Shown here one piece after another: positions 22,237 to 40,030 of a DNA stretch of 40,030 bases (position 1 is the stretch's first letter; each line of letters opens with the position of its first letter). Source of the DNA: a virus. The notes under the pieces were generated by a model. The model saw only the letters and a list, made by a program, of their open reading frames with translations. It was not told where the DNA came from and did not search any database. A program made the translations under genes and the position numbers. Location: IMG/VR virus record IMGVR_UViG_3300007734_000681, positions 1 to 40,030 of that record, one strand, 5' to 3'.

Positions 22237-22261
22237 GTTATATTTATAATTTAAATATAAC
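22237..22261 (+). promoter_or_regulatory. 10-bp inverted repeat with promoter-like word upstream of tail sheath
   Basis: GTTATATTTA (22237-22246) and TAAATATAAC (22252-22261) are perfect inverted repeats around a five-base loop. The left arm contains the recurrent word TTATATTTATAA (22238-22249). It lies in the 80-base gap before the sheath gene, the largest gap in this part, and could be a promoter, an operator or a transcript hairpin. Confidence 0.5.
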
Positions 22262-26250: not shown

Positions 26251-26271
26251 GTTGAGTTAAACGCAATAACG

Positions 26272-26305
26272 AACCCCGCTTAGAAATAAGCGGGGTTTTT
26301 TATTT
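26272..26305 (+). terminator. Rho-independent terminator after tail sheath gene
   Basis: An 11-bp perfect stem AACCCCGCTTA / TAAGCGGGGTT (26272-26282 with 26287-26297) is closed by a GAAA tetraloop and followed by a T-rich tail. It is the only strong GC-rich hairpin noticed in an AT-rich window. It ends the sheath transcript about 22 bases after the stop. Confidence 0.93.
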
Positions 26306-26310
26306 GTCTG

Positions 26311-26322
26311 GTATATTTATAT
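26311..26322 (+). promoter_or_regulatory. Candidate promoter word GTATATTTATAT after the terminator
   Basis: A near copy of the recurrent TTATATTTATWA word lies between the terminator and the ATG at 26326. Transcription must restart here for the four downstream genes unless the terminator leaks. The word ends only three bases from the ATG, so any leader would be very short. Confidence 0.35.
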
Positions 26323-26325
26323 ATT

Positions 26326-26616
26326 ATGATACGTTTGACTCAAATTATTGAAGATTTAACCAAACCACAGGTTAAAGAAGCAGTTGACCCATCTTTATTA
26401 AAATTAATCGATGAAGTTATTAACGATACCAATGTATTAGTTGTTAATAATTTAAAAATGGTAAAGGATATTTTGTCAAAAGAACCTATTGACAAAGCTA
26501 GATTAGATGTGGCTCTAAGCAACTATAAACGTTATTTTAATAGAGACAACGGTGGCACACCTGAAGTAATTCGTGGTATGACAATGCAAAATAAACTAGA
26601 CGAATTATCAAAATGA
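26326..26616 (+). CDS. Small helical protein with capsid-targeting-like N-terminus
   Basis: This 96-aa protein was not recognised. It starts M-I-R-L-T-Q-I-I-E-D, a variant of the N-terminal motif shared with the next three genes, and I-I-E fits the (L/I)-x-E site used by T4-type prohead protease. The remainder looks all-helical (LLKLIDEVIND, KARLDVALSNYKRYF). It is the first gene after the sheath terminator, and its stop overlaps the next ATG (ATGA). It may be a small internal head protein. Packaging is inference from the N-terminus and from the neighbours, and the motif match is weaker here than in the next genes. Confidence 0.6.
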   Translation: MIRLTQIIEDLTKPQVKEAVDPSLLKLIDEVINDTNVLVVNNLKMVKDILSKEPIDKARLDVALSNYKRYFNRDNGGTPEVIRGMTMQNKLDELSK

Positions 26617-27398
26617 TTAGTTTAACAGATCTATTGTTAGAAGCCAAACTTCCTCAAAGCGAGCAAGATATGGATCTTTATGCTCGTAAATACAAGAAAA
26701 CAATAGATTATTTACGTACCAAGAACAAAGTACTATTGTTAACTACCAGTAATAGATGGAGTCAACACAAAGACGATGTTCCAAAGAGTACTCAATTAGC
26801 AATCAAAATACAAGAATTATTGGGTAAAGAAAAAGTCACATTGATTGAAGTACCCAGTTTAAATATAGCTCCTTGTGAAGGCAATGTTAGTAGCAATTTA
26901 AAATATGACGGAAATCATTGTGGTGTTGCAAAAGCATTATTAAAAGATAAAGAAAAGAATCCAAGTGGATATCATCGTTGTTGGGCAAGTCTTAATGAAA
27001 AAGGGGATGAACTTTGGAAGATTACCAAAGAACTATTTGAAAGTGATTGTGTAGTATTTTTTGCAAGTGTTAGATGGGGTCAAGCCAATGGTTACTATCA
27101 GAAATTAATTGAAAGATTAACTTGGATCGAGAACAGACACTCTACTCTTGGAGAAAAGAATGTTGTAAAAGACATTGAAGCTGGATTTATTGCGGTTGGA
27201 CAAAATTGGCACGGTAAACAAGTTGTAGAAACACAAAAAGCAGTATTAGGCGATTATTACCAATTCAAAACATCAGATGTATTGTTTTGGAATTGGCAAT
27301 TTACACAAGATGATACAGACGAAGCCAAACGTTCGTATGATAAAGCAATTAAAGTATTTGATAAAACATTTTTAAAACCATATGATAAGGCTGAATAA
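26613..27398 (+). CDS. Flavodoxin-like/NADPH-dependent FMN reductase-family protein with targeting N-terminus
   Basis: A 261-aa protein. Residues 1-11 are M-I-S-L-T-D-L-L-L-E-A, matching a T4 internal-protein targeting peptide with an L-x-E|A protease site after E10. From ~40 the sequence follows a flavodoxin-like fold: strand VLLLTTSNRWSQ with a Ser/Lys-rich loop and helix STQLAIKIQELL (the usual FMN phosphate site), then VVFFASVRWGQANGYYQKLIERL at ~148-170, the family's second flavin loop. Such enzymes bind FMN and reduce quinones or flavins with NAD(P)H. Cys/His residues at ~90-125 form an unusual insert. If packaged, it would enter the cell with the DNA. The fold is moderately supported, the redox role is family-based and the packaging is inferred. 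The start overlaps the previous stop (ATGA). Confidence 0.7.
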   Translation: MISLTDLLLEAKLPQSEQDMDLYARKYKKTIDYLRTKNKVLLLTTSNRWSQHKDDVPKSTQLAIKIQELLGKEKVTLIEVPSLNIAPCEGNVSSNLKYDGNHCGVAKALLKDKEKNPSGYHRCWASLNEKGDELWKITKELFESDCVVFFASVRWGQANGYYQKLIERLTWIENRHSTLGEKNVVKDIEAGFIAVGQNWHGKQVVETQKAVLGDYYQFKTSDVLFWNWQFTQDDTDEAKRSYDKAIKVFDKTFLKPYDKAE

Positions 27399-28056
27399 TA
27401 TATTAAAAGAATGGCTTAACGAGATAAAATATACTCCGGATCAAGCCATTAAAATATTAGCAAAATTTGGAATACGCGGTGCGGATAGATTATCGGATGA
27501 TGAGTTGAAGAAACAATTCAGAAAAATTGCTTTTAAACATCATCCAGATGCCGGTGGTAAACACGAAGATTTTATACAAATAAACGCGGCATATGAAACA
27601 TTGACACAACATTTAAAGCCCGTACAACGTGGTGCAGATGATTCTGACGCATCTCAATCAGATAATGATTATGGATATTCGCCCGATGAATTAGACGCTC
27701 TTCGTAAAAGAGCAACAGAAGTTAAGAAAGTATTTGATGCAATGAAGTCGGATATTCGATTTGTCGAGTTAACCAACGGAAAATATCCAGCTATGGAATT
27801 TTTCATAAGCGATTTAAACGCGGCGAATCAACGTGATCCACATTTAAAAACATTATTTATAAATTTATTTGATAATAAACAGGGTATGGCTAGAATACAG
27901 ATATTTTATGATACCGAAGAAAATAAATATGTAGCAGCTGCTGGTGGAACAATTTCTGGTGCTGGAGGTGAATATAATTCGATTGATGATATGATCAACG
28001 ACATATATAAGAATTCAATTAAGTGGTTGGCTAAATATAGAAAACCTAAAAAGTAA
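27382..28056 (+). CDS. J-domain (DnaJ-like) protein with targeting N-terminus
   Basis: A 224-aa protein. It begins M-I-R-L-N-N-I-L-K-E-W-L-N-E, with L-x-E sites at E10 and E14. A J domain follows at residues ~17-75: helix LSDDELKKQFRKIAFKHH, the diagnostic H54-P55-D56, and helix FIQINAAYETL. J domains stimulate the ATPase of DnaK/Hsp70. An acidic linker (DDSDASQSDNDYG) leads to a ~120-residue alpha/beta domain of unknown function. There is no Gly/Phe or zinc region, so this is a class III J protein that probably uses its C-terminal domain to recruit a client. The ATG overlaps the end of the previous gene by 17 bases. A role in steering host Hsp70 is inferred. Confidence 0.8.
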   Translation: MIRLNNILKEWLNEIKYTPDQAIKILAKFGIRGADRLSDDELKKQFRKIAFKHHPDAGGKHEDFIQINAAYETLTQHLKPVQRGADDSDASQSDNDYGYSPDELDALRKRATEVKKVFDAMKSDIRFVELTNGKYPAMEFFISDLNAANQRDPHLKTLFINLFDNKQGMARIQIFYDTEENKYVAAAGGTISGAGGEYNSIDDMINDIYKNSIKWLAKYRKPKK

Positions 28057-28069
28057 ATAAAATAGAAAT

Positions 28070-29104
28070 ATGATAAAGCTTAATAACATTTTAAGTGAAG
28101 TAATTAAAGAAGGTGGTGCTGGAGGTCATATGGCACATCCATTTGATTTTGTAAATACAGGAGCTAAATTAGTGGATGTATTTTCTAAATCTGTAAAGTC
28201 TTTGAAACAGGGTGCTGGTAGTGTTAAAATAGACGGTGTAAATGCTAGTATTCGTTTAGTAAATGGACAATTCGTAATGGATCGTGGTAGTGCAAAACCA
28301 CTTGATATTAAAGGGATGAGACCTGAGGATTTGCCTAGTCGATTTGAACCTGGTCACGGATTCATTAATATTGGCACTAAGGTAATTAATATCTTTGATG
28401 AAGCTATTCCTACTACCAAATCCGAATTAAAAACGCTTGGGTTACTAGATAATCCTAATATACTATTCAACATTGAATATGTAGAGGGACAAACAAATGT
28501 ACTTGGATATGGTGAGATTGGAAACTTTTTAGCTATTCACGGATTGAAAGAAATTAAGCCAAAAACATTTGGTAAAGATGGAAGTGTTAAATCAAGAGAA
28601 GCTGTTGAAATACCATATGATAAAACCGCAATGCAGTCTTATATAAACAAATTAAATAAGGTTGCTATGAAGAGTGGTTTTAAAGTCTTGGGTAGCATTG
28701 ACACTACTTTCAAATCAGAACCAAAACTAGCAAGCGTTTTGACGCAGCCAGTTACATTGTATCCCACTGGCGAAGCTGTAACTAAGTCTTTGAAAGATTG
28801 GTTAAAAGGATTAAAGTTTAAAACTCCTCTTATTACCCGTGAACAATTTTTAAAAGCGGTAGATAGTAAGAATATCAGTCAAGATTTTCCAGGTCAAGAT
28901 GTAAATAAAATAGTTAATGATACTATTGTTTATCTAACCACAATTAAATTGGGAGATGAAATATTAAAAAATGCTACCAGTGAAATTGGAGACTTGGAAA
29001 AACATGAAGGTATAGTTGTGAGAGACTCAAGTATTTATGGTAATCCATTTAAAATTACAGGAAGTTTTATTATAAAAGGTCTTGGAAGTAAGTTTAAGAA
29101 ATAA
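28070..29104 (+). CDS. Nucleotidyltransferase-superfamily protein (RNA/DNA ligase-like) with targeting N-terminus
   Basis: A 344-aa protein. The N-terminus M-I-K-L-N-N-I-L-S-E-V-I-K-E-G-G nearly repeats that of the J-domain gene, and I-K-E|G is a good prohead-protease site. Ligase/capping-enzyme motifs follow in order: motif I K53-I-D-G (nucleotidyl-lysine), motif Ia D71-R-G-S, a motif III-like FNIEYVEGQ (~133), motif IV EGIVVRD (~313) and a motif V-like KITGSFIIKG near the C-terminus. Enzymes of this fold activate a strand end by AMP transfer to the lysine. Whether the substrate is RNA or DNA is not evident, and there is no OB-fold DNA ligase tail. It may repair nicks or host-cleaved tRNA. 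The gene follows the J-domain gene by 13 bases. Confidence 0.72.
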   Translation: MIKLNNILSEVIKEGGAGGHMAHPFDFVNTGAKLVDVFSKSVKSLKQGAGSVKIDGVNASIRLVNGQFVMDRGSAKPLDIKGMRPEDLPSRFEPGHGFINIGTKVINIFDEAIPTTKSELKTLGLLDNPNILFNIEYVEGQTNVLGYGEIGNFLAIHGLKEIKPKTFGKDGSVKSREAVEIPYDKTAMQSYINKLNKVAMKSGFKVLGSIDTTFKSEPKLASVLTQPVTLYPTGEAVTKSLKDWLKGLKFKTPLITREQFLKAVDSKNISQDFPGQDVNKIVNDTIVYLTTIKLGDEILKNATSEIGDLEKHEGIVVRDSSIYGNPFKITGSFIIKGLGSKFKK

Positions 29105-29122
29105 ATTAAATACATATTTGTT

Positions 29123-29770
29123 ATGAAGAAAGCATCAGGTAAAAGTAATCTAGGCATTGTTAAAGATTATCTAGAAGGTAATCGTCCATTCGTACAAGTT
29201 GGCTATGATGCCAATTTAGAGAATAATAAACGCAAAGAAGGTGACGAATGGGAGGACAGTCAAGGTCGCAAGTGGATATGGAAAAATGGAAGCAAACGAA
29301 GAATTTCGAAACGTGCTACCATTATCAACGAACAACGTTGTAAATGTTGTAATGTGGATGTTCGTTGGGGCAATTATTTAGATGATCGTGTTTGGCCCAA
29401 AACAGGATATTGTTATGATTGTTTTATCGATTTCCAAACAAATCTTAAATTGATTGGAATGTTTGAAGTTTATAACGAATTGCAAGATTTTAAAAATGAA
29501 CGTGGTATTTTAGAAGATTATAAGAAAAAGTTTGAAGAAAGTAAAAAGTTTTGTGAAGAAAATAAAGATAAAGATGTTACATTTCTTGAGGAAGATGGAT
29601 CGTTTGAAAAGTGGGATGGTAATATAGATTACAATAAAATATTTGAAGATTTGACAAAGGATATAGGTGTTATTGACGTTCGATTGGAAGAATTGAATCT
29701 TAAAATAAAAGAGTACGAAGAGAAATATGAGTCAGCCAAATCTAAGAGAAATAATAAAGCAGGAGTATAA
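29123..29770 (+). CDS. Zinc-finger coiled-coil protein upstream of terminase; possible small terminase subunit
   Basis: A 215-aa protein. The N-terminus is basic with a Trp-rich motif (EWEDSQGRKWIWKNG). A zinc-binding region follows: C73-x-C75-C76 (CKCC) and C97-x2-C100 (CYDC). Residues ~120-210 are Glu/Lys-rich and strongly coiled-coil. It overlaps the terminase large subunit gene by 44 bases, just as T4 gene 16 overlaps gene 17, and coiled coils are typical of small terminases. That makes it the positional candidate for the DNA-recognition subunit of the packaging motor. However, a zinc finger is not a feature of T4 gp16 and no sequence match to gp16 is visible, so a generic DNA-binding protein remains possible. 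Confidence 0.6.
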   Translation: MKKASGKSNLGIVKDYLEGNRPFVQVGYDANLENNKRKEGDEWEDSQGRKWIWKNGSKRRISKRATIINEQRCKCCNVDVRWGNYLDDRVWPKTGYCYDCFIDFQTNLKLIGMFEVYNELQDFKNERGILEDYKKKFEESKKFCEENKDKDVTFLEEDGSFEKWDGNIDYNKIFEDLTKDIGVIDVRLEELNLKIKEYEEKYESAKSKRNNKAGV

Positions 29771-33303: not shown

Positions 33304-34182
33304 ATGCACAAGAAAGCAAAACATTCGAAATTCAAGAATGCTGGAATATTGTTTGAACTACTCACTCGACAAATAACAGCCGACATTCTAGCGGGAAGAG
33401 ATGAATCATTTACTAAAAATTTAATGTTCAAGTACTTTCACGAAAGTAAAGAACTTGGAAAAGAAGTGCAGCTTTATAATTTTATTTTACAACAAAAAAG
33501 TAAAGACGCATCATCAGGTGAAAGACTTTTGAATGTTGTGTTGCAAACACGATCCAAGATCGATGAACGTGAATTGAATAAACAGAAGTATAATATCATC
33601 AAAGAGATTAAAGAAAAGTATAATATTGATGAATTTTTAAAGAACAAGATTCCAAATTATAAGTTATACGCATCTATTTATAAACTATTTGAAGATCAAG
33701 ATAAAAGTGAGGCTAAGTTTGAAGTTTCTGAGTTATTGGAATCGAGAGAGTATATCATAGAAAATTTGACAAAAGAAAAGAAGTCAGATCAAGAATCAAT
33801 GGATGTTTATGGAAATCAAAGTGCAGAAGTAAGATTGTTAGCATATAAGTTTTTAATTGAGAATTTCAATACCAAATACAACAATCTATTGCCTGATCAA
33901 AAGAAACTATTGAAGGAATATATTACCAATGTTTCTAATTCCAGTAAATTTACTAAGTATGTCAATGAAGAATACAAAAGAATCAGTGTAGTATTGAAGG
34001 ATCAAGTTAAAAATGTTACATCCGAAGTGGTTAAGATTAAAATAAACGAAGTTATTAGTCAATTTTCCACCAAGTCTTGTACCGGTGTAATTAAAGAAAA
34101 TCAATTGACTTCTTTATTGAATGCATATGAGTTGGTAGAAGAAATTAAAAAGATTGATGTTAAAAATGAAACAAAATCTTAA
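33304..34182 (+). CDS. Helical head-module protein of unknown function, 292 aa
   Basis: Not recognised by family name. It starts MHKKAKHSKFKNAGILFELLTRQ, and this basic head followed by a helix looks conserved. The rest is almost entirely helical and Lys/Glu-rich (ERELNKQKYNIIKEIKEKY, LLPDQKKLLKEYITNV), with no enzyme motif. It lies between portal and prohead protease, where T4 carries the small prohead-core genes 67 and 68, but it is larger than either. A prohead core, vertex or packaging-accessory role is inferred. A T4-like late promoter lies just upstream and the next gene overlaps its end by up to 26 bases, implying coupled translation. Confidence 0.65.
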   Translation: MHKKAKHSKFKNAGILFELLTRQITADILAGRDESFTKNLMFKYFHESKELGKEVQLYNFILQQKSKDASSGERLLNVVLQTRSKIDERELNKQKYNIIKEIKEKYNIDEFLKNKIPNYKLYASIYKLFEDQDKSEAKFEVSELLESREYIIENLTKEKKSDQESMDVYGNQSAEVRLLAYKFLIENFNTKYNNLLPDQKKLLKEYITNVSNSSKFTKYVNEEYKRISVVLKDQVKNVTSEVVKIKINEVISQFSTKSCTGVIKENQLTSLLNAYELVEEIKKIDVKNETKS

Positions 34183-35154: not shown

Positions 35155-35760
35155 ATGAAACAAGTACTGATAGATATTCTACCATTTGAATTCAAAAAAA
35201 CATCTTTAAATGAATCTCTTAAAGATGGAAAATTATACGTAACCGGCGTATTACAACGTGCCGATGCAAAAAACCAAAACGGCCGTGTATATCCAGAAGA
35301 TGTACTAAAAAGAGAAGCTGAAAAGTATATGCAAAATTTCGTTAAACAACGCCGTGCTATGGGTGAATTGGATCATCCAGAATCATCTGTTGTTAACTTA
35401 AAAAATGTAAGCCATAATATCGTAGATATGGGATGGGAAAATAAAGATTTGGTTGGTACCGTCGAAATTCTTCCTACACCAAGTGGTAACATATTAAAAG
35501 ATTTATTGCAATCCGGTATTCTTTTGGGTATTAGTAGTCGTGGATTGGGCAGTGTAAAGAAAGATATGAGAGAAGGAGCTGATGTTGTACAAGACGACTT
35601 CGACCTAATCGCATTTGATTTTGTAAGCAATCCAAGTACCCAAGGTGCTTTTATGTATCCACAAGGTAAAATCAACGAAGGCGTTGATCAACACAGAACA
35701 ATTATTAACCCATATAATAACGTTGAAAGAATTATCCACAACATTCTATCAGAACTATAA
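35155..35760 (+). CDS. Prohead maturation protease (gp21-like)
   Basis: A 201-aa protein, close to T4 gp21 (212 aa). The herpesvirus-type serine protease fold is recognisable by GELDHPESS with His74 and by GISSRGLGS with Ser127/Ser128 as the nucleophile region. NQNGRVYPEDVL and DFDLIAFDFVSNPS are further family blocks. The enzyme sits in the prohead core and cleaves scaffold, capsid and internal proteins after Glu in (L/I)-x-E sites. A self-site candidate is L18-N-E20|S near its N-terminus. It is flanked by core-like proteins and lies upstream of scaffold and capsid genes, as in T4. Its substrates probably include several N-termini in this window (see findings). Confidence 0.94.
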   Translation: MKQVLIDILPFEFKKTSLNESLKDGKLYVTGVLQRADAKNQNGRVYPEDVLKREAEKYMQNFVKQRRAMGELDHPESSVVNLKNVSHNIVDMGWENKDLVGTVEILPTPSGNILKDLLQSGILLGISSRGLGSVKKDMREGADVVQDDFDLIAFDFVSNPSTQGAFMYPQGKINEGVDQHRTIINPYNNVERIIHNILSEL

Positions 35761-35772: not shown

Positions 35773-36225
35773 ATGAAATTAAAACATTTACTAGAAAACT
35801 CTACTGAAGTAGCTTATAGCTCTCTCACCAAAGAAGAAAAATCAAAAATGGTTGGGGCTATTAAATCTTACAACGAATATCGCAAAGGATTAAAAGCCGA
35901 TTGTGTATATGAAACCGCACAAAAAATTATGGAGGCTGTTAATTTAGCAGAACGATATGCCATTAAAGAATGTGGCGATTGGATGCAAGCCAAAATGGTT
36001 GAACGTGATATGAAAGAAATCAAGAGAGATGCTTCTAAAATGTATGAAGAAGCTCAAAAGATGAAAGAAATTGAAAAACAACTTGAAATGTTGTATGAAC
36101 AAGTTGGTATGAGATTGGAACGTTATTTTGAAATTGCGGATTCAATGAGTGAAGCTCCGCAAGCTTATCAAACACAAGCACAAACAAGCAACGTTAGTAT
36201 CAATTCATCGGTACAGAATCAATAA
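35773..36225 (+). CDS. Small helical head-module protein, putative prohead core component
   Basis: This 150-aa protein begins M-K-L-K-H-L-L-E-N, with L-L-E resembling a prohead-protease site close to the N-terminus. Residues ~20-125 are almost entirely charged helix (KMVERDMKEIKRDASKMYEEAQKMKEIEKQLEMLYEQV), a long coiled coil, and then a Gln/Ser/Ala-rich tail. It directly follows the protease gene (12 bases) and precedes the scaffold, so an internal core or chaperone role is likely. No family was recognised. Its 3' end overlaps the converging minus-strand gene by 26 bases. Confidence 0.6.
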   Translation: MKLKHLLENSTEVAYSSLTKEEKSKMVGAIKSYNEYRKGLKADCVYETAQKIMEAVNLAERYAIKECGDWMQAKMVERDMKEIKRDASKMYEEAQKMKEIEKQLEMLYEQVGMRLERYFEIADSMSEAPQAYQTQAQTSNVSINSSVQNQ

Positions 36226-37396: not shown

Positions 37397-38464
37397 ATGA
37401 GCGATCTATTAAAAGAAAGTATTGCGGATGCAAAGGCTGTTCGTGAAACAGCATTGGCAAATGCAAAAACCTTCCTTGAAGAAAGTTTTGCAAACAGCAT
37501 GAAAGAAATGTTTGCTGACAAACTCAAAGAAGAAATGGCAGAAGAAGGCGCCGAAGAAGAAGTCAAGATTGAAGAAAAGCTTGGATCTTCTAACATCGGT
37601 AAAGATGATGGTTTAACAGCTAAGACTACAAAACCAGTAAAACCATCGCCTGTTTCTAATAAAAACACAACTGCAGCAGGTAAACAAGAATTCGACGCAA
37701 AGCTTGAAGAAGAAGCTGCGGTTGAAGAAGGCACCGAAGTAACCAGTGAAGAACTAGATGAAATTCTAGCTGAATTGGAAACTGAAGTATCCGAAAAAAC
37801 AGAAGCTGACGAAGAAGCTTCTTCTGAAAAAGGCGACGACGTTGACGAATCTATTAATTTAGACGAACTTCTAGCAGAACTAGAAGCTGAAGATTCCGCT
37901 GCGCCAGCACCTGCTCCAGCACCAGTTGATCCAGCTGCTCCAGCACCTGTTGATCCAGCTGCTCAAGTACCAGCTGCTCCAGCTCCAGCACAAGTTCCAT
38001 CTCCATCTGAAGGAGAAGTTACTGCTGAAGAAATGGCAGAAGCTTTGGTTGCTATCAATGAAGAAAACGAATCTCTTAAGAAACAACTATCAGAAGCTCT
38101 AAGTACAGTTAAGTTTATGAAGGGCGTTCTATCTGAAACTAACCTATTGAATGCTAAGTTGCTTTATACCAACAAGTTGTTCAAGGGTAAGAGTTTGACC
38201 GAAGATCAAAAACTTAAGATCATTAACACTTTTGACTTGACCAAGAACATTCGTGAAGTCAAGTTGGCATATACAGTTTTAGCCGAATCATTTAATTCCG
38301 GTGCATCAGTTGTCAAGAAAAAGACAAATACAACTGCTCAAGCTATCACCGAAGGTTTGGCAAGCAAACCAGTATCATCTACTAAGCCTGATTCTACCAT
38401 TGTAGAACCTCAAGCTGAAGTGATGACTTCAAGATTCCAAAAACTCGCAGGAATCAAGAAGTAA
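37397..38464 (+). CDS. Prohead core scaffolding protein (gp22-like)
   Basis: A 355-aa acidic protein. The N-terminus M-S-D-L-L-K-E-S contains L-K-E|S, a possible protease site, then a helix (ANAKTFLEESFANSMKEMF). The middle is a long Glu/Ala-rich region and a Pro-Ala-rich linker (~residues 170-200). The C-terminal ~140 residues are the conserved part: ESLKKQLSEALSTVKFMKG, then TNLLNAKLLYTNKLFKGK and LTEDQKLKIINTFDLTKNI, which I recognise from T4-type scaffold proteins. Scaffold fills the prohead, templates capsid assembly and is then chopped by the protease. It sits immediately before the capsid gene as in T4. Codon use in the C-terminal part is the AAG/AAC/TTG style of highly expressed genes. 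Confidence 0.88.
   Translation: MSDLLKESIADAKAVRETALANAKTFLEESFANSMKEMFADKLKEEMAEEGAEEEVKIEEKLGSSNIGKDDGLTAKTTKPVKPSPVSNKNTTAAGKQEFDAKLEEEAAVEEGTEVTSEELDEILAELETEVSEKTEADEEASSEKGDDVDESINLDELLAELEAEDSAAPAPAPAPVDPAAPAPVDPAAQVPAAPAPAQVPSPSEGEVTAEEMAEALVAINEENESLKKQLSEALSTVKFMKGVLSETNLLNAKLLYTNKLFKGKSLTEDQKLKIINTFDLTKNIREVKLAYTVLAESFNSGASVVKKKTNTTAQAITEGLASKPVSSTKPDSTIVEPQAEVMTSRFQKLAGIKK
37916..37963 (+). repeat. Two 24-bp direct repeats in the scaffold gene
   Basis: Units 37916-37939 and 37940-37963 differ at one base and each encode PAPVDPAA. They lie in the Pro/Ala linker between the acidic middle and the conserved C-terminus, a likely recent in-frame duplication. Confidence 0.85.
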
Positions 38465-38517: not shown

Positions 38518-40030
38518 ATGAGTATGGATGTAAAAAGTCTATTGACAAACAATATGAATCCACAAGCCAAATTGATGGCTGAAACACGTGGACTACAATC
38601 AAAATGGGAAAAGACAGGCCTTCTAGAAGGTTGCGCTGGTGTCGAAAAGGCACATATGTCAATCCTATTGGAAAACCAAGCAAAGCAATTGCTTGACGAA
38701 GCAACCACAACTGGTACTTCCACCAGTTCTGAACAATGGGCTGGCGTAGCTCTTCCATTGGTTCGCCGTGTGTTTGCTGAAATCGCTGCGAAGGAATTCG
38801 TAAGCGTTCAACCAATGAACCTACCAGCAGGTCTAATTTTCTATCTAGACTTCAAGTATGGTACAACCGCTCCTGGTACCGATTTGCGTAACTTGAACAA
38901 TGGTAGTTCCGTAACTACCCGTGCTGGTAAGCAATTGAATGACAGTTTGTTCGGTGGTACAGGCAAGAAGTTGGGTTCAACCGATGACGCTGTACGTGGT
39001 CTATACGGACAAGGTGCTTATGCATATTCAATCCGTCCAGTAAGTAGCTCTGCTATTACACTCGCTAAGAGTGCAACCGCAACCGCAATTGGTAACACAA
39101 TTCAAACCGCTTCTTGGAACGACGTACAATTCGCTGCCGAATTGAGTTCTTCTGTAGTTGCTAAGAAGTTGTTCAAAGTTATCGTAAATCACGATGACAA
39201 CACTACTCCTGTAGTTGGTCAAGGATATATGTACAATGTTGATTTGAATGCAGTACGTTCATTCAACTTGATCTCAGCTTCCGCATTGCCAACTTCTCTA
39301 CAAAGCAGTGGTTTGGTATTGAACACCTACGCCAAAGCAATCAACACCGGTAGTTTGAGCAATCCATTCTATCAATCTGTATACATCGTATCCGCATCTA
39401 ACAGTGCATTCGGCGGTGCAGCAAGCAAGGTTAAGTTGATCTATAGCCTACAACCTACCGACAACCTACGTGGTGACTTCGAAGCTGGTAAGACAGCAGG
39501 TGAAGGTTCCGGTACCGCTGGTAACGTTGCTACACAAAGCATCGATACCGATATCAGTATCCCAGAAGTTAACTTGGTACTAAACAGCGAACCAATCGTT
39601 GCTAAGACCCGTAAACTAAAGGCAGTCTGGACCCCAGAATTGGCTCAAGACTTGAACGCATATCACTCTATCGATGCAGAAGCAGAACTTACTGCTCTAT
39701 TGAGTGAATATGTTTCTATGGAAATCGATCTAGAAATCCTAGAAATGTTGAACGAAGCCGTTGAAGGTGTAACTACCGAAGCTTGGTCCGCCCAAATTGG
39801 TGTTGAATTCAGCAAGGGATTGAATGCAACTACTGGTGAAGCAGTCTTCACACGTAATGCAAACAGTTCACCAAACCGTACTGCTTACGTAAAGAGCACT
39901 TGGTTCCAAACTCTTGGAAACAAGATTCAAAAAGTATCTAACACAATCCAAAAATTGACCCTACGTGGTGGTGCTAACTTCTTGGTCGTAAGTCCAGACG
40001 TAGCAACCATCTTGGAATCAATTCCATCAA
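38518..40030 (+). CDS. Major capsid protein (gp23-like), 3' end outside window
   Basis: The frame from ATG 38518 is open to the right edge (504 codons; T4 gp23 is 521 aa). Recognisable blocks are VALPLVRRVFAEIAAKEF, SVQPMNLPAGLIF, and KLKAVWTPELAQDL followed by YHSIDAEAELT, the diagnostic gp23 region near residues 366-390. The predicted maturation site is L59-D60-E61|A62, equivalent in place and form to the T4 site after residue 65. This would remove an N-terminal helical propeptide rich in Glu/Lys. The protein forms the hexamers of the shell. Codons are shifted strongly to AAG, AAC, ACC, CGT and TTC, as expected for a very highly expressed gene. There are 53 bases between the scaffold stop and this start. 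Confidence 0.96.
   Translation, partial: MSMDVKSLLTNNMNPQAKLMAETRGLQSKWEKTGLLEGCAGVEKAHMSILLENQAKQLLDEATTTGTSTSSEQWAGVALPLVRRVFAEIAAKEFVSVQPMNLPAGLIFYLDFKYGTTAPGTDLRNLNNGSSVTTRAGKQLNDSLFGGTGKKLGSTDDAVRGLYGQGAYAYSIRPVSSSAITLAKSATATAIGNTIQTASWNDVQFAAELSSSVVAKKLFKVIVNHDDNTTPVVGQGYMYNVDLNAVRSFNLISASALPTSLQSSGLVLNTYAKAINTGSLSNPFYQSVYIVSASNSAFGGAASKVKLIYSLQPTDNLRGDFEAGKTAGEGSGTAGNVATQSIDTDISIPEVNLVLNSEPIVAKTRKLKAVWTPELAQDLNAYHSIDAEAELTALLSEYVSMEIDLEILEMLNEAVEGVTTEAWSAQIGVEFSKGLNATTGEAVFTRNANSSPNRTAYVKSTWFQTLGNKIQKVSNTIQKLTLRGGANFLVVSPDVATILESIPS

Follow-up and report, generated by a model that had tools for sequence, protein, structure and literature searches.

A probable T4-type internal-protein island with swappable cargo in a T4-like myovirus

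Four consecutive genes in a fragment of a T4-like myovirus begin with a common N-terminal tag, and they are best read as an island of T4-type internal proteins in which a capsid-targeting sequence (CTS) precedes exchangeable cargo, a reading that we consider probable. The motif, its conservation at the protein level, its counterpart in T4, the protease and the structure of the cargo junctions were observed directly. Packaging of the tagged proteins in the head is strongly indicated by the sequences; we infer that the protease would cut the tags and, by analogy, that the proteins would be injected and act on the host. The enzyme functions of the cargo, that of the J-domain protein excepted, are weakly assigned. 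The kind is not new, a review having already stated that T4-like phages may package varied proteins by way of the CTS; new are the island, its cassette junctions and a J-domain protein among the tagged cargo.

The island and its N-terminal tag

The window, as the whole stretch of DNA under analysis is called here, is a 40,030-base virus record. Its gene order runs from a sheath-like gene (22282) through the island (26326-29104), a gene at 29123, a terminase gene (29727), a portal-like gene (31343), genes at 33304 and 34154, a protease gene (35155), a gp68-like gene (35773) and two minus-strand genes to a scaffold-like gene (37397) and a gene for a gp23-type capsid protein (38518). The names sheath, portal, gp68-like and scaffold were taken from position and from the gene order in Flavobacterium phage immuto, as opposed to profile matches. 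Among phage records, the terminase and the protease are closest to those of Microcystis phage Mel-JY01 (56% and 58% identity); their identities to those of immuto are 52% and 53%. Mel-JY01 and immuto (host LMO8) are also the cultured phages nearest to that of the window, which is uncultured.

All four island genes lie on the plus strand. ORF1 (26326..26616, 96 aa), ORF2 (26613..27398, 261 aa), ORF3 (27382..28056, 224 aa; it begins before ORF2 has ended) and ORF4 (28070..29104, 344 aa) begin with MIRLTQIIED, MISLTDLLLE, MIRLNNILKE and MIKLNNILSE, respectively. The form common to them is M-I-x-L-x-x-[I/L]-[I/L] followed by Glu, and hydrophobic residues occupy positions 4 and 7 in every case. Glu is found at position 10 in ORF2, ORF3 and ORF4, the three of four counted in an earlier sequence-only reading, and at position 9 in ORF1, where residue 10 is Asp. 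Candidate (L/I)-x-E processing sites are IIE9 in ORF1 (tag MIRLTQIIE/D, residues 1-9; the slash marks the predicted cut), LLE10 in ORF2 (MISLTDLLLE/A), LKE10 and LNE14 in ORF3, and LSE10 and IKE14 in ORF4. When every in-frame ATG, GTG or TTG in ORFs no shorter than 40 aa was scanned in all six frames of the window, the pattern M[IKR].[LF]..hh.?E matched ORF1 to ORF4 alone, bearing out the proposal that these four N-termini align.

A broader class pattern, M.{1,2}h..hh.?E, was matched by 5 of 29 listed window genes against 0.71% of internal protein positions (binomial P = 1.8e-6), and its form with Glu at position 10 only by 3 of the 29 against 0.20% (P = 2.7e-5); with internal protein positions as background, these values overstate the case because they are post hoc and assume independence of the tags, an assumption that fails since those of the J-domain gene and ORF4 share DNA. 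The fifth gene with the broad pattern is the gp68-like gene at 35773. For the same reasons, the comparison with T4 given below outweighs the window P values.

An intrinsic-terminator-like hairpin (26271..26298, plus strand), with a 12-pair stem and then a T-run, stands between the preceding gene and the island. It is followed by a late-promoter-like element, ATATTTATA (26313..26321, plus strand), on the 5' side of ORF1. Four copies of this element occur on the plus strand of the window (at 22240, 26313, 33279 and 35760) and none on the minus strand; all are closely upstream of genes, and both ORF1 and the gp68-like gene have one 12 bases before them. The element, a putative promoter, is similar to the T4 late promoter, TATAAATA, once the latter is reverse-complemented.

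Comparison of the tag with T4 head proteins

The first 10 residues of T4 IPIII are enough for packaging, and mutagenesis has linked its residues 4 and 7 to targeting and its residues 8 and 10 to processing; Asp at position 10 blocks processing and leaves targeting intact, and gp21 cleavage follows L/I-x-E (PMC9026906). Placed beside IPIII, the window tags are hydrophobic at 4, 7 and 8 and carry either Glu at 10 (ORF2 to ORF4) or Glu at 9 with Asp at 10 (ORF1).

As a calibration, we applied the class pattern in the form M..h..hh.E to 267 T4 genes entered by hand from the annotation. This pattern, chosen with knowledge of the T4 tags, matched 5 of the 267 proteins where 0.5 were expected, namely Alt, IPII, IPIII, gp24 and 61.1, the last of which we take to be an internal protein. 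Alt, IPII, IPIII and gp24 are cleaved head proteins (PMC9026906). T4 IPI (MKTFKEFTST...) fails the class pattern, indicating that the rule is incomplete. The class pattern was used because a position-weight matrix built from this group's own tags proved overfitted, gp30 and uvsY outranking head proteins when it was run on T4.

Head genes of the window

A gp21-type protease had been proposed at 35155, and the gene there (35155..35760, plus strand) indeed matches Peptidase_S77 (7e-29) and the PHROG head maturation protease family (3e-53). The gp68-like small core gene (35773..36225, plus strand), recognized by its position between protease and scaffold and without a profile match, starts with MKLKHLLE/N, or with MIKLKHLVE/N in some relatives. 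The scaffold/core gene at the gp22 position (37397..38464, plus strand), likewise without a profile match and assigned by position and composition, encodes a protein with 17 L/I-x-E sites along its length. The gene for the gp23-type major capsid protein (38518..40030, plus strand) runs past the window end, and its product contains QAKQLLDE/A, a candidate maturation cut after residue 61. The matching place reads LISE/A in Mel-JY01 and IVSE/A in immuto, and the T4 gp23 counterpart, FLTE/A, ends at 65.

The scaffold-like protein ends in RFQKLAGIKK (window positions 38430-38461), and an immuto protein (L200:11675-12139) begins with MKKQILSEQFRRMQKLAGIITES. Common to the two is an (R)-x-QKLAGI motif that may be an element for core binding.

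Proteins behind the tags

The bodies behind the four tags had been described as unrelated to one another. The J-domain in this description stood, the flavodoxin-like and ligase-like assignments turned out to be weak, and ORF1 gave no reliable match to any known family. ORF3 matches Pfam DnaJ (E = 2e-9, 37.8 bits against a cutoff of 27.8) and contains the HPD motif (KHHPDAGG). Relatives of the window were taken as the 80 contigs with ORF4, of which six long ones were read almost entire, as overlapping pieces. The J-domain gene is present in the window and in only 3 of these 80 contigs, and a search of 16 long related contigs and of Mel-JY01 found it in none of them; ORF3 is an accessory gene.

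ORF2 may have a flavodoxin or FMN-reductase fold. Its FMN_red match (E = 0.016, 15.3 bits) is below the Pfam cutoff of 24, fold matches of its AlphaFold model to flavin reductases reach E values of about 2e-3, and no match was obtained in phage records. The KxDG and EGIV motifs suggest that ORF4 may be a ligase-like nucleotidyltransferase: across the alignment KxDG, E313 and K328 never vary, and within the window family neither do EGIV and KITG. Neither a family-profile match nor a PDB sequence match was found for ORF4, and its best fold match was an RNA editing ligase (E = 0.27). Both AlphaFold models are of low confidence (pLDDT 51 for ORF2 and 48 for ORF4), and the fold matches were not taken as proof. 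The further suggestion that these proteins form an unusual injected set is thereby narrowed to a J-domain protein that is real but accessory, the redox and ligase assignments being weak.

In phage records ORF4 has one distant match, in Mel-JY01. There, one protein (L103:11243-13162) joins a cytidylyltransferase-like domain (Pfam E = 4e-4) to an ORF4-like part that follows it. This fusion protein starts with MGKLINILLSE and has NNIIAE/GG, an L/I-x-E site, at the join, so that a prohead protease would be able to separate both parts.

Tagged cargo in related phages

A search of related phages for the motif on other unrelated proteins, suggested along with the original observation, was productive. 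Each of the six long relatives has 5-8 pattern matches among its 96-137 genes (P from 8e-4 to 3e-7), a few of which may be due to chance. Tagged proteins in the relatives include a Mom-like protein (Pfam 1e-24), GP88 proteins (2e-34 and 9e-24), a protein with weak helix-turn-helix matches, and proteins of 155, 173 and 202 aa. Tagged proteins of immuto begin, for example, with MIKLIDLLTE and MISIYNILKE.

Several of the loci deserve description. Two similar copies of one uncharacterized protein (155-156 aa) are present in one contig (L120:1531-1995 and L120:10348-10815) with the different tags MKLIDILTE and MILLKDLLIE. A 247-aa ORF without known family precedes ORF2 in another (L079:8466-9209), at the place where ORF1 is expected. 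The Mom-like protein encoded at L083:12018-12764 has the tag MIKLKELILE, and its gene is located 12 kb from the contig start, away from head genes. ADP-ribosyltransferase-like readings of some tagged proteins in G007 and Mel-JY01 had been made by eye only and were dropped, Pfam searches being empty.

This range of cargo bears on the possibility that the tagged proteins, although packaged and cut, have their role in head assembly, in the manner of T4 gp67/gp68 or IPIII, and not in an action on the host. The related start on the gp68-like core gene is consistent with such a role, as is the influence of T4 IPIII on head assembly (PMC9026906). However, the cargo varies among close relatives and includes the J-domain and enzyme-like families, unlike essential core proteins, making a purely structural role unlikely in our judgment.

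A Mom-like DNA-modification protein is tagged in two related contigs. Because Mom modifies DNA in the producing cell, a tagged Mom-like protein counts against pure delivery. It also fits the idea that the tag is some general signal that has nothing to do with the head, for example a short helix binding a membrane or a partner, or a docking peptide for some other phage complex. The hydrophobic spacing would suit a short helix, and low-confidence models place helices at residues 4-13 of ORF4 and 4-10 of ORF2. Such a signal nevertheless leaves unexplained the Glu of (L/I)-x-E, the start of the gp68-like protein, the capsid-protein site and the match with T4, and we regard it as very improbable.

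Conservation of the tag and structure of the cassette junctions

We compared 22 distinct ORF4 tags drawn from 79 loci. Residues 2, 7, 8, 10 and 14 are fixed, residues 3, 5, 6, 9 and 13 are variable, and residue 4 is Leu with a single exception, a tag that has Phe. Leu4 is encoded by five different codons in this set and Leu8 by three; in the four window genes, the Leu4 codons are TTG, TTA, CTG and CTT. That the Leu4 codons differ while the residues stay indicates that the amino acids, and not the DNA, are kept. The ORF2 tag is kept at 62 loci, with residues 2, 4, 8 and 10 fixed and Leu or Ile at 7, and one ORF1 variant is without Glu at position 10. Glu14 of ORF4 is invariant in the alignment, the distant Mel-JY01 segment included, and one homologue of the J-domain protein has Lys at position 10 and keeps only the LNE14 site. 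Judged from this retention of Glu14, cutting of ORF3 and ORF4 after residue 14 would be as likely as cutting after residue 10.

The junctions of the accessory genes fall on tag-coding DNA. The J-domain gene is preceded by 21 bases, ataaaacatttttaaaaccat, that in relatives without this gene stand in front of ORF4, and in J-bearing contigs ORF4 is preceded by new upstream sequence. In the related contig L002, the J-domain gene and ORF4 share their first 25 bases (ATGATAAGACTAAATAACATTTTAA). The gene for the 173-aa protein is located between ORF1 and ORF2, behind the end of ORF1, and has an ORF2-like MISL tag; in some contigs it shares ATGATTAGTTTAA with ORF2. Both the J-domain gene and the 173-aa gene are positioned exactly at tag junctions, beside a second copy of the tag. 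In two contigs, moreover, the N-terminal part of ORF1 continues in frame into the 173-aa body to give a chimeric protein of 199 aa (for example, L056:8616-9212). Tag DNA may drive this recombination, or it may mark where successful recombinants show. The DNA shared at these junctions could also suggest that the similarity of the tags comes from shared translation-start DNA or recent local duplication with no protein-level function, but the change of codons within a family while residues 2, 7, 8 and 10 stay, together with the Leu4 codons of the window, which already disfavored it, leaves this explanation the least credible of all.

Proposed mechanism and implications

The following lend good support to the reading of the tag as a signal for capsid targeting and cleavage: 1) the T4 calibration, the match with IPIII mutagenesis and the site in the capsid protein; and 2) the start of the gp68-like protein, conservation at the protein level and the presence of the tag on other cargo in relatives. 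For an internal-protein island of the T4 type, we propose that the hydrophobic residues 4 and 7 would guide each protein to the prohead core as it grows, where the gp21-type protease would cut after (L/I)-x-E at position 9, 10 or 14 and free the body inside the head. The freed body would then pass down the tail together with the DNA and enter the next host. ORF2 and ORF4 would be the regular content of the island between the sheath and terminase genes, and other cargo, such as the J-domain and 173-aa proteins, would be gained and lost. As the junctions lie at short tag-coding DNA, an inserted body would arrive with a working tag.

A more specific version is put forward tentatively, as something that may well prove wrong: the tagged J-domain protein would enter with the DNA and recruit host DnaK at time zero, and tag-coding DNA would act as a recombination site that plugs in cargo together with its signal. 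The recruited DnaK could refold other cargo after tail passage, or could turn stress or defense responses of the host to the favor of the phage. We looked for virion proteomics of Flavobacterium phage immuto in a study of phages of the same host and found none.

Head-carried proteins of T4 are known as anti-restriction and take-over factors. If the island is read correctly, sequence reveals the tag, the protease logic and the exchange of cargo in this group of uncultured aquatic phages and allows head-borne proteins to be predicted. With the N-terminal rule, four of whose five T4 matches are documented gp21 substrates, proteins that may be delivered could be listed cheaply for phages that encode a gp21-type protease. 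A J-domain protein carried in the head would, if true, be cargo of a new sort.

Comparison with known systems

T4-like phages may package varied proteins via CTS according to a review (PMC9026906). The island resembles T4 IPI, IPII, IPIII and Alt (PMC9026906, PMC3012670) in that diverse bodies follow one N-terminal tag, which spans about 10 residues, is hydrophobic at 4, 7 and 8 and has Glu at 10, and in that a gp21-type protease is present. It differs from T4 in that its putatively packaged cargo is unrelated to that of T4 and is clustered between the sheath and terminase genes, and in that some of its tags have a second site at 14. P1 DarB and the ejection proteins of phiKZ and SPN3US are also head-carried and delivered to the host, with an N-terminal signal in P1 and a cut after Glu by a gp21-like protease in phiKZ and SPN3US (PMC9024508, PMC9026906). 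In contrast to the island, no tag common to the P1 Dar proteins has been found, and the phiKZ site is S/A-x-E rather than L/I-x-E.

Phage J-domain proteins have precedents. Rki of RB43 binds DnaK, stabilizes sigma-32 and is made early, and it is taken to be without a leading tag because its J-domain is reported at residues 2-70 (PMC3486835). Rki and ORF3 are alike as small phage J-domain proteins with a separate C-terminal domain; however, Rki is an untagged early product acting on host DnaK, whereas ORF3 is tagged and putatively head-carried. Aeromonas phages AS-szw and CC2 encode a distinct J-domain protein that starts with MSKMFNELFE/S, an L-x-E site. Its C-terminal part is other than that of ORF3, and its tag fails the strict pattern at position 7. 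The gene lies near gp3, gp1 and a relative of 57A (57A match E = 6e-8), which is the neighborhood of ipI in T4 (near 57A, gp1 and gp3). In this protein as in ORF3, the J-domain follows an N-terminus with an L-x-E site, and both are putatively packaged.
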